From Sulfurovum sp. TSL6 (lineage in GTDB: Bacteria > Campylobacterota > Campylobacteria > Campylobacterales > Sulfurovaceae): DNA of 64,000 nt. A model generated the notes under the pieces. It made no database searches and had not been told where the DNA came from. It saw only the letters and a program-made list of their open reading frames with translations. Location: contig NZ_BPFJ01000001.1 of the NCBI RefSeq assembly GCF_019972115.1, forward strand, positions 868,001-932,000, given 5' to 3'. This document shows, piece by piece, positions 56,479-62,790 of this stretch (within the stretch, counting starts at the first letter, position 1; each line of letters starts with the position of its first letter). A program made the translations under genes and the position numbers.

Positions 56479-57405
56479 CTAATACTTCTTATTGGTATAT
56501 TCTATGAGATCTTTCTCACTCAGGTCCGCTATCAGACCCGTGAGGTTCCTCAATGAAAAAAGTTGTAACTTCTCACCTTTTTCCTTTTTCAGTTCAGACG
56601 AGAACTTGTTTTTAGAGAAGATGACAAAAGTATCGACATCCAATTGCGCTTGTGCACATTTTTCTTTGAGCTTTGTAAGTTCACTTTTATTGGCTTTTGA
56701 CTTGGAGTACTTTGTGACACCTGCGATCATTTCACCAGACTTTCTTTTGATCAATATGTCGATCTCAACATTCTTGTCCCAATACCCACCGATACTAACG
56801 ATAGGGTCGCCTTCAAAAGCATCTTTAAAACTCTTTTTGAGCATTTCAAAAACCAATTGATCATAGATAAGCGTAGAGAACCCTGCTTTCATGTGAGACC
56901 AGTGTGCTTTCATCTCTGAGTAGTCACCCGCTTTGATGCCTTTATAGTAAGGAGAGATACAGGCAAACCAAAAACGCATAAACGGTTGTACAAACAGGAG
57001 TTTATCAGAGTTTCCCTCTTCTTCTTTCAACGGTTTTTCTACAGATCTATCAAAAATCAAAAGATCGCTTTTGACAAGCCAATCTATAGCCTCTTCTCCC
57101 TCTTCTCTTTTTACATTCGCCTTTTTAAATGCAGAATGTTCCCGTCTGTCACCTGATGCAATGGCAGAAAGAAGTGCATGGTAGAGAGGTTTGCTCTTTG
57201 TCGTATGTGCAATGTCCCCATGAATGTATCTGTAGTTGCGAAGCACTTTTTCTTCTATGAGATCGTCGATGGGTTTAGAAAAGTCAATCTGCCACCCCAT
57301 ACCGCCAAATACAGCAAAATACTCTACTGCCTGTTCAAAGTCAGTAGCATTGTTTTGGTAACAAAAAGAACGGAAGTGTTGTAGTAGTGTCGGATTTTTC
57401 GCCAT
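56479..57405 (-). CDS. DUF234 family protein, paralogue A
   Basis: A 308-residue soluble protein. The N-terminal two-thirds is helical (LLQHFRSFCYQNN, then a winged-helix-like KANVKREEGEEAIDWL), the C-terminal third looks like the DUF234 domain with NVEIDILIKRKSGEMIAGVTKYSK (split: NVEIDILIKR, MIAGVTKYSK), a PD-(D/E)xK-like arrangement whose acidic residue before the lysine pair is replaced here (GVTK). The usual AAA domain of archaeal-type DUF234 ATPases is missing. A colinear 308-residue paralogue lies at 61416-62342. Divergent from selO. Confidence 0.75.
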   Translation of the reverse strand: MAKNPTLLQHFRSFCYQNNATDFEQAVEYFAVFGGMGWQIDFSKPIDDLIEEKVLRNYRYIHGDIAHTTKSKPLYHALLSAIASGDRREHSAFKKANVKREEGEEAIDWLVKSDLLIFDRSVEKPLKEEEGNSDKLLFVQPFMRFWFACISPYYKGIKAGDYSEMKAHWSHMKAGFSTLIYDQLVFEMLKKSFKDAFEGDPIVSIGGYWDKNVEIDILIKRKSGEMIAGVTKYSKSKANKSELTKLKEKCAQAQLDVDTFVIFSKNKFSSELKKEKGEKLQLFSLRNLTGLIADLSEKDLIEYTNKKY

Positions 57406-61415: not shown

Positions 61416-62342
61416 TTAGTACTTTTTATTGGTATAGGCTAACAAGTCATCTTTACTCAAGTGATCTAGTAACGAAGCCAGATGAGTGTGTGTTAAAAGT
61501 GTCAAGTCTGCTTCTTTCATCTGCTCAACTTCAGAAGAAAATCCATTTTTAGAAAAGAGTACATACTCCGTTATATCTAGTTCTGCCTTTTCACACTTCT
61601 CTTTAAGGGAGTTCAGCATGTTCATTTTTGCTGCCTCTTTAGAGTATTTGCACTCACCTGCCAACATCTTTCCGGATTTTCTTTTGGCAAGTATCTCTAT
61701 CTGCACATGTTTATCATAGTATGAACCTATGGAAACGATGGGATCATCTGCAAACTTTTCAGCAAAGCTTTGTTTTACAAGTTCTAGCACCAATTGATTA
61801 CTCAGCAAGATAGAAAAGTTCGCTTTGAGCTGATTCCATTTTTGGGTAAATTCACTAAAGTCACCATTCGAAATGCTCTTATAATGGGGAGAGATCACAG
61901 CAAACCAAAAACGCATAAAAGGCAATTCAAACAACACTCTGTCCGATTTCCCATCACTTTCTTTTAAAGGTTCTTCTACTGAGAGATCAAATTTTAACAG
62001 ACTTTTCTTTTCCAGGTAGTCCATAGCTTCTTCACCCCTGTCTCTACCCACTTTAGCTTTTTTAAAAGCATCATGCTCATGATTCACACCTAAGGCTACG
62101 AGAGACAACAAGTTATGGTACACAGGGTTATTATGTGTATATCTTGTCATGCTTTTATGAAGGGCTTCGTAGTTACGCAGTACTTTTTCTTCTATGAGTG
62201 CCTCTACACTCTTAGATACATTAACATCCCACCCCGTACCACCAAATACTGCAAAGTACCCTAAAGCCTTATCAAAATCCCTGATATTATTCTGGTAAGC
62301 AAAAGAGCGAAAATGTTGTAAAAATGTTGGACGTTTTGACAT
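61416..62342 (-). CDS. DUF234 family protein, paralogue B
   Basis: A 308-residue protein colinear without gaps with the gene at 56479-57405; about half of the residues are identical by eye. The nuclease-like strand pair is HVQIEILAKRKSGKM followed by GECKYSK, so here the E-x-K of a PD-(D/E)xK site is present, whereas the other copy has GVTK. The ends HFRSFAYQNN and YTNKKY are shared. It lies upstream of the small membrane protein in the same direction. No ATPase domain. Confidence 0.75.
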   Translation of the reverse strand: MSKRPTFLQHFRSFAYQNNIRDFDKALGYFAVFGGTGWDVNVSKSVEALIEEKVLRNYEALHKSMTRYTHNNPVYHNLLSLVALGVNHEHDAFKKAKVGRDRGEEAMDYLEKKSLLKFDLSVEEPLKESDGKSDRVLFELPFMRFWFAVISPHYKSISNGDFSEFTQKWNQLKANFSILLSNQLVLELVKQSFAEKFADDPIVSIGSYYDKHVQIEILAKRKSGKMLAGECKYSKEAAKMNMLNSLKEKCEKAELDITEYVLFSKNGFSSEVEQMKEADLTLLTHTHLASLLDHLSKDDLLAYTNKKY

Positions 62343-62570
62343 AGGTTAGCCTTGTATTGATACATGAATTATATCCAATGTTTATAGTGTCTCTTTTTTT
62401 CGTTTTCAACCTTTGTATAAAAGTGTAGAAGTATGTCATATTGACATCTTTTTAATGATGATGGAAAAATTGGGGTAATCTTTGAATGCAGTCTGACTAT
62501 GTTGTGTCAAACAACAGAGGCAACTGCTGTTTGAACCTCGTAGTCAAATCCTGACTGTGAGAGGTGGTGG
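62343..62570 (+). other. Intergenic region and structured leader of the 21-residue peptide
   Basis: About 230 bases before the small peptide. TATAAA at 62415 or TTGACA at 62441 may belong to its promoter. From about 62484 the sequence is strongly self-complementary: TGACTA...TAGTCA closes an inner CAAACAACAG / CTGCTGTTTG stem, and CAGTC / GACTG pair outside it. This leader ends in the ribosome binding site GAGAGGTGG. Confidence 0.5.
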
Positions 62571-62575
62571 ATGAT

Positions 62576-62641
62576 ATGGAATTAACCATTCTCATCATTT
62601 CGATTATATTAGCTATTCTCAAGTATCTAAATAATCGTTAA
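62576..62641 (+). CDS. Hydrophobic 21-residue peptide, type I toxin-like
   Basis: An ATG behind GAGAGGTGGTGG encodes MELTILIISIILAILK followed by a short basic tail ending NNR. It is one short membrane helix with a charged tail, the design of type I toxins such as TisB or the AapA peptides. The leader is strongly folded, a terminator hairpin follows at 62649-62670, and the antisense strand has a perfect TATAAT inside the ORF (62603-62608). It may be a real toxin-antitoxin locus, a regulatory peptide or a chance ORF; I favour the first two. Confidence 0.45.
   Translation: MELTILIISIILAILKYLNNR
62603..62608 (-). promoter_or_regulatory. Candidate antisense promoter (-10) inside the small peptide ORF
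   Basis: Perfect TATAAT on the minus strand with TTTAGA, four of six matching TTGACA, 17 bases upstream. Transcription would run leftward across the peptide start, its ribosome binding site and the structured leader, so the product would be a cis-antisense RNA. AT-rich DNA produces many such boxes by chance, so this is tentative. Confidence 0.35.
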
Positions 62642-62648
62642 AACCATT

Positions 62649-62670
62649 TAGAGGGAGCTTTGCGCTCTCT
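62649..62670 (+). terminator. Terminator after the 21-residue peptide
   Basis: AGAGGGAGC / GCGCTCTCT pair around TTT with one mismatch and one G-T wobble, seven bases after the peptide stop, followed by CTTCAAAC. It supports a short independent transcript. Confidence 0.5.
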
Positions 62671-62790
62671 CTTCAAACATCATTCTAGCAGAAAATGCTT
62701 TGTATGTAAATAGTCACTATCATCATAAATACCTGAAGCTAAAAGTGTTACACTTATAGTGATTCACTTTTATTACAAGGTTTTTCGGCA

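Follow-up and report, generated by a model that had tools for sequence, protein, structure and literature searches.

A probable type I toxin-antitoxin-like module with a putative SOS-type operator in Sulfurovum

Introduction

Among described systems, those closest to the locus reported here are tisB/istR-1, dinQ/AgrB, aapA/IsoA and hok/Sok. In the passages that PMC8309996 and PMC11264685 devote to it, tisB/istR-1 of E. coli combines a small membrane peptide, an SOS-type regulon, a structured leader and an RNA antitoxin, and IstR-1 is trans-acting (PMC8309996); dinQ/AgrB, also of E. coli, appears there as a short, single-helix, SOS-regulated membrane peptide, again with a trans-acting antitoxin (PMC8309996). 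According to the relevant parts of PMC6733600, aapA/IsoA of H. pylori is a multicopy system of the Campylobacterota whose mRNAs form a long-distance interaction and alternative hairpins, with the IsoA3 promoter inside the toxin ORF, and in hok/Sok the 5' hairpin is metastable and the full-length mRNA is closed by pairing between its 5' and 3' ends. For the Epsilonproteobacteria, including Campylobacter and Helicobacter, the sections of PMC2390758 that bear on the subject describe no LexA orthologue.

Here we analyse a unit of ~250 bases from Sulfurovum of the deep-sea type, whose self-folding mRNA codes for a tiny membrane peptide, and which carries a probable antisense RNA and a control site of the DNA-damage type. 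The window, a stretch of 64 kb from Sulfurovum sp. TSL6, contains one copy of this family. A preliminary description, made from the letters of the window, had proposed a new type I toxin-antitoxin locus at 62415-62672, a span that covers nearly the whole of the conserved unit (62432-62710). As a whole that interpretation is partly supported; the element it overlooked is an SOS-type operator 5' of the leader. On the basis of sequence comparison we consider it likely that the locus is a type I toxin-antitoxin-like module under this operator, with a wiring resembling that of tisB/istR and an mRNA folding resembling that of hok or aapA. The hok/Sok system differs from the module in peptide, size and antisense position. 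Neither the family nor the regulon was reported in the open-access literature that we searched on type I toxin-antitoxin systems in Sulfurovum and on LexA and the SOS response in Epsilonproteobacteria, Sulfurimonas and Campylobacterota.

Results

Extent and spread of the family

The conserved unit is bounded on the left by the operator box (from 62432) and on the right by the antisense -35 (to 62710); beyond these edges conservation is at flank level, with majority fractions of 0.45 and 0.42. Its features are collected in Table 1. The preliminary description had recognised no known sequence, and no Rfam family matches the locus at gathering score; at that score only a tRNA elsewhere in the window was matched, while over the locus a search at E ≤ 1 gave only a chance-level snoRNA. 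The window also encodes, on the minus strand, two similar 308-residue proteins (56479-57405 and 61416-62342), the second a DUF234 match; the paralogy of the first was judged by eye only.

Table 1. Positions in the window of the features of the Sulfurovum unit.
Feature	Position	Strand	Evidence
Operator palindrome TATGTCATATTGACATC, 1 mismatch to TATGTCA-NN-TTGNCATA	62432-62448		conserved position
Sense -10, TAATCT in the window (weak)	62476-62481	+	TATAAT or near variants in most copies
5' leader, competing pairings; predicted start near 62488	62487-62575	+	fold z -5.3; covariation
GCAGUC, 5' arm common to two alternative helices	62488-62493	+	partners 62522-62527 or 62553-62558
AACUGC, near partner; 5' hairpin of locked or nascent form	62522-62527	+	95% of cells paired
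GUUUGAA, leader side of long-distance interaction	62529-62535	+	pair probability, RNAalifold
GACUGU, far partner of 5' arm, long leader hairpin	62553-62558	+	double change, columns 7-76
Shine-Dalgarno AGAGGTGG	62560-62567	+	seen in the sequence
Hydrophobic peptide ORF, 21 residues, putative toxin	62576-62641	+	dN 0.25, dS 1.21 (24 copies)
TATAAT of the preliminary description, rejected as family antisense promoter	62603-62608	-	TA...T in 3/20
3' hairpin, terminator-like; 5' hairpin of antisense RNA on other strand	62650-62672	+	pairing kept
UUCAAAC tail, 3' side of long-distance interaction	62672-62678	+	UUCAAAC in 19/20 copies
Antisense extended -10, TG-C-TAGAAT	62682-62690	-	best of 291 scanned positions
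Antisense -35, TTTACA, 17 nt from -10	62705-62710	-	conserved in most copies

When 60 relatives were searched at the DNA level, full-length homologues (~68-74% identity) came from the same genus only, often several per genome. With a covariance model we obtained 25 strong matches (E ≤ 2.5e-24), spread over 14 of the 78 genomes of the genus with at most 4 per genome; at E ≤ 0.01, where partial copies and weak matches are counted, 18 of the 78 genomes are reached. A pattern for the 3' tail matched in 15 of these genomes and in 19 stretches of named GTDB contigs, all from Sulfurovum or from unplaced Epsilonproteobacteria, Campylobacterota and Campylobacteraceae; carriage by phages was rejected, as the same pattern matched 0 stretches of viral_contigs. 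The copies lie at unrelated places and their neighbour genes vary by site, with the same downstream neighbour, a peptidase of family M90, in three copies (window, L089, L091). Judged from these homologues, which at many unrelated sites keep the peptide, leader, hairpin and promoter elements, the locus is above chance. The family alignment consists of 20 clean copies, the peptide test of 24 (4 with a mini-insertion added) and the A3 peptide alignment of 23 rows; the partial copies L042 and L162, the contig-edge copy L094, the L067 remnants and the G098:C147 copy were left out.

The mini-insertion (26-36 bp, ACCCCAAGGG[C/T]ATTTC...GGCA) occurs in the leaders of L042, L089, L090, L098, L104, L162 and L225, among them that of a copy in genome G070 that shares its neighbour gene with the window copy; it was seen in 8 distinct contexts among 263 loci, none of them within the window. 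At L067 a 3' remnant of the family directly follows an IS605-type TnpB-like gene (recognised by eye), and the contig holds a second decayed remnant. We rejected the reading as an IS605 right end: the L067 remnant is taken for a relic because no other inspected copy shows such a neighbour.

An order-wide search (298 genomes) gave three matches in two genomes of another family, f16, with E from 5.5e-13 to 8.4e-9, and a search of 121 f16 genomes gave five matches in three genomes. These distant homologues (L168, L169, L179, L262, L263; peptides such as MLRIIELILKVVYEIFLYLRNN) have an antisense extended -10 downstream and, by eye, no obvious SOS box; their MFE structures show 5'-3' closure in 2 of 5 copies.

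The peptide

The ORF claimed at 62576-62641 (MELTILIISIILAILKYLNNR, stop TAA) was found downstream of the Shine-Dalgarno sequence AGAGGTGG, as the preliminary description had it. Across the family the peptide has 20-21 residues, with the rough pattern MDxxILILTIIVAILRYxNN, and M1, I5 and L15 invariant in 24 copies; the hydrophobic core encoded by the ORF has a GRAVY of 3.27. Conservation of the peptide had been named as a check on the locus, and the 24 copies indeed bear the mark of purifying selection: pooled over codons 2-18, dN is 0.25 and dS 1.21, statistics which, as they pool related, non-independent copies, are descriptive only. Two out-of-frame controls show no such pattern.

Compared with the Pfam TisB_toxin profile, 15 of 23 family peptides gave sub-threshold matches at E ≤ 1 (best E 2.7e-4), the window peptide not being among them; in the control, 1 of 20 core-shuffled peptides matched. 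The TisB cut-offs were not reached, with 18.3 bits against 25 (Pfam PF13939) and 16.6 against 38 (NCBIfam TIGR04459), in a scoring that took three family peptides singly, of which one matched, and that does not include the bits of the member with the best E. No DinQ-named family was among the matches in Pfam scans of the family peptides. The window peptide itself had no match in the Pfam scan, and a PDB search with it returned nothing at E ≤ 10, hence no solved structure.

Folding of the mRNA

The self-complementarity that had been reported for the leader is confirmed, and the 188 nt of 62485-62672 fold with an energy of -62.8 kcal/mol and a z-score of -5.3, equalled by 0 of 200 shuffles. The 5' arm, GCAGUY family-wide, can pair either with the nearby AACUGC or with the more distant UUAACUGC/UGACUGY: at 62488-62493, 95% of cells are paired with 62522-62527 and 96.7% with 62553-62558. 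Covariation among family copies was another check that had been named, and the leader helices do covary, with a score of 0.154 versus 0.117 for shuffled alignments (0 of 500 shuffles as high); column pair 7-76, as an example, shows a double change between CG (8 copies) and UA (10). In the long-hairpin structure 87.5% of cells are paired, and at most 41.8% after sliding the partners. By eye, the changes at columns 7-76 and 9-68 follow mostly one deep split, and therefore represent few independent events. The sense -10 of the window copy is weaker than those of the other copies, so that the window copy may be poorly expressed.

A terminator had been placed directly after the ORF. What stands of this claim is the hairpin at 62650-62672, which is G+C-rich and in which 7 of 9 pairs stay paired in at least 19 of 20 copies; the pattern scanner, on the other hand, called 0 terminators, and the U-tract is poor.

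The two ends of the mRNA are complementary. RNAalifold, unprompted, pairs GUUUGA with the UCAAAC tail, and single-sequence folding agrees; the GUUUGAA/UUCAAAC lock is predicted with a mean pair probability >0.65 in 19 of 20 copies, and the one tail that departs from UUCAAAC reads UUCAACC. In copy L013 the lock is broken without compensation, and no compensatory change was found within the family; the lock lacks covariation because the pairing is nearly invariant. When the RNA of the window copy is cut after the ORF, the predicted fold of the leader switches to the long hairpin. How the lock would hide the ribosome site and block translation is the weakest step of the proposed mechanism: the predicted access of the Shine-Dalgarno sequence hardly changes, the mean being 0.32 in the full-length and 0.39 in the 3'-truncated form.

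The antisense promoter

The preliminary description had assigned the antisense RNA to a TATAAT inside the ORF, on the minus strand at 62603-62608. The letters are there, but TA...T is kept in only 3 of 20 copies, and this site was rejected in favour of a conserved promoter downstream of the mRNA; the window contains 67 exact TATAAT (36 on the plus and 31 on the minus strand). Of 291 aligned positions scanned on the minus strand, the best is the site that ends at 62682, with a mean of 7.0 of 8 matches and TA...T in 20 of 20 copies, its family consensus being TGnTARAAT. The majority fraction is 0.83 in the -35 and -10 hexamer regions versus 0.65 in the spacer. Given this conserved downstream promoter, an antisense RNA convergent with the mRNA is expected to begin near 62675, to cross hairpin, ORF and leader, and to overlap the mRNA fully.

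The putative operator and the SOS-type regulon

The box TATGTCA-N3-TGNCATA is present within 3 mismatches in 22 of 24 copies, and within 2 in 20, always exactly 38 nt upstream of the leader start; the two other copies have no box. Among shuffled upstreams, 1.4% reach 3 mismatches. The majority fraction is highest in the box columns (0.85), and lower in the following spacer (0.64) and in the flank (0.45). The hairpin fold of the palindrome had prompted the idea of a terminator, which was rejected, most of the inspected sites in the own genome being located between divergent genes.

Elsewhere in the same genome, boxes precede radA, ruvA/murJ, recA, recG, a Y-family polymerase gene, mltG and the gene of an S24/CI-like repressor (loci of this regulon: L054, L053, L048, L047, L058, L063). 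For recA, where 27 of 30 loci could be read (3 starts were not located), the box is found within 2 mismatches in 27 of 27 and within 1 in 25, versus 1 of 27 and 0, respectively, in the shuffled control. For the repressor gene itself, with 24 of 30 loci read (6 not located), it is found within 3 mismatches in 24 of 24 and within 2 in 22. Over the 78 genomes the box pattern has 1025 matches, compared with 38 for the reversed pattern; it is absent from two of them, G005, which has the repressor, and G010, which does not.

The repressor has Peptidase_S24 and Phage_CI_repr domains, and is matched at E ≤ 1e-10 in 76 of the 78 genomes, some of these matches being only short N-terminal or paralogous. 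The self-cleavage site and the Ser/Lys dyad are recognizable as SAGG in 27, GESM in 27 and [FL]IKR in 28 of 30 proteins, a check that used a different finder from the upstream test and covered 30 of 30 proteins. Against NCBIfam lexA the repressor scores below cut-off (E 4.8e-9); LexA_DNA_bind (PF01726) is absent from the own genome and is matched in 2 of the 78, both times in 445-codon open frames. A recA gene and repair genes combined with a self-cleaving repressor that has its own box make up an SOS circuit. The box regulon has the appearance of an SOS regulon that lacks canonical LexA, and in which the repressor would bind the box and DNA damage would induce the genes.

A second, sequence-distinct Sulfurovum family of short-peptide RNAs (L241-L261, in G018, G030, G087, G094 and G097; for example MRFILIIVILLLLIIVTKAY) has 21 DNA matches in 5 of the 78 genomes, 11 of them in one genome and three in tandem. 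Here too the ends are complementary and an antisense promoter is convergent with the sense one; in 9 of 9 folded copies 5' ends of the CUAGUUGG type close on 3' ends of the CCAACUAG type. A close box was found in 1 of 18 copies (L242, 1 mismatch). Its peptide may resemble the Ibs toxins.

Discussion

These results can be assembled into a mechanism. When there is no DNA damage, the S24/CI-type repressor would occupy the box TATGTCA-N3-TGNCATA in front of the toxin promoter, and leakage transcripts would be covered by an antisense RNA made constitutively from the downstream extended -10 promoter. The sense mRNA may fold during synthesis, with the full-length form locked by the pairing of GUUUGAA with UUCAAAC; once the 3' end is lost, the leader would be free to form a different hairpin. 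Upon damage, RecA would promote self-cleavage of the repressor and, if both strands are transcribed, the mRNA would outnumber the antisense RNA. The membrane peptide of 20-21 residues would then be made; most likely it would lower the membrane potential and slow growth, acting while the repair genes of the same regulon are at work.

SOS-induced membrane proteins can have other roles, the division inhibitor SidA being a model. The peptide might serve the bacterium, for example as an inhibitor of division, from a leader-regulated gene that is not part of a toxin-antitoxin pair. An SOS-type box in front of a small, hydrophobic, selected peptide is what such a gene would also present; however, the conserved convergent antisense promoter and the complementary ends of the mRNA fit a toxin-antitoxin module better, and the patchy, multicopy spread (14 of 78 genomes) among different neighbours fits it better than it does a housekeeping regulator. 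We regard this explanation as improbable, though it is the best of the rivals. The type I plan put forward in the preliminary description, in turn, has good comparative support in the selected peptide, the covarying leader, the predicted lock, the convergent antisense promoter and the scattered multicopy family.

It is still less probable that the family is a true member of AapA/IsoA that has diverged in sequence. The phylum is the same, the peptide is short and hydrophobic, and the 5'-3' lock (predicted in 19 of 20 copies) and the alternative hairpins are like those described for aapA3 in the passages of PMC6733600; the comparison with AapA/IsoA, already drawn in the preliminary description, is therefore apt for the folding of the mRNA. 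It fails for the layout of the antisense promoter, which lies outside the ORF, downstream of the mRNA, and not inside it as in aapA3/IsoA3 (PMC6733600, same passages), TA...T within the ORF being kept in 3 of 20 copies. In addition, according to the parts of PMC6733600 on this system, AapA3 has 30 residues, and no SOS box is mentioned there, whereas the Sulfurovum module has an SOS-type box. There is also no Rfam match, and it is on these features that the two families are provisionally set apart.

With respect to TisB, an SOS-type operator, its function predicted, precedes the toxin in 22 of 24 copies. The antisense RNA of the module is, however, predicted to be convergent, cis-encoded and fully overlapping, unlike the trans-acting antitoxins described for tisB and dinQ in the passages of PMC8309996, and the repressor is not canonical LexA. 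We file the type I-like modules of Sulfurovum as a putative new family, a member of neither TisB nor AapA, because, to the extent that they were scored, they stay below the cut-off for TisB, and because they do not have the AapA promoter layout. A non-coding or selfish MITE-like repeat with an incidental ORF, which the short unit, the scattered copies and the mini-insertion in several leaders might bring to mind, is very unlikely in view of the selection on the peptide, the promoters conserved on both strands and, by eye, the lack of terminal inverted repeats or flanking duplications.

Beyond the single locus, we lean slightly towards a broader interpretation, in which this genus, from a phylum said to lack LexA, runs an SOS regulon (recA, ruvA, radA, recG, Y-family polymerase) under a CI-like S24 repressor, and mobile, self-locking type I toxin RNAs have been recruited to it independently of tisB, converging with it in a TisB-like helix and in wiring. 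If this is true, a CI/S24-type SOS regulon would hold multicopy peptide toxins, and the coupling of DNA damage to membrane peptides, as in tisB and dinQ, would have arisen repeatedly, here in a short module that is predicted to consist of four elements, an operator, a lock, an antisense RNA and a peptide.
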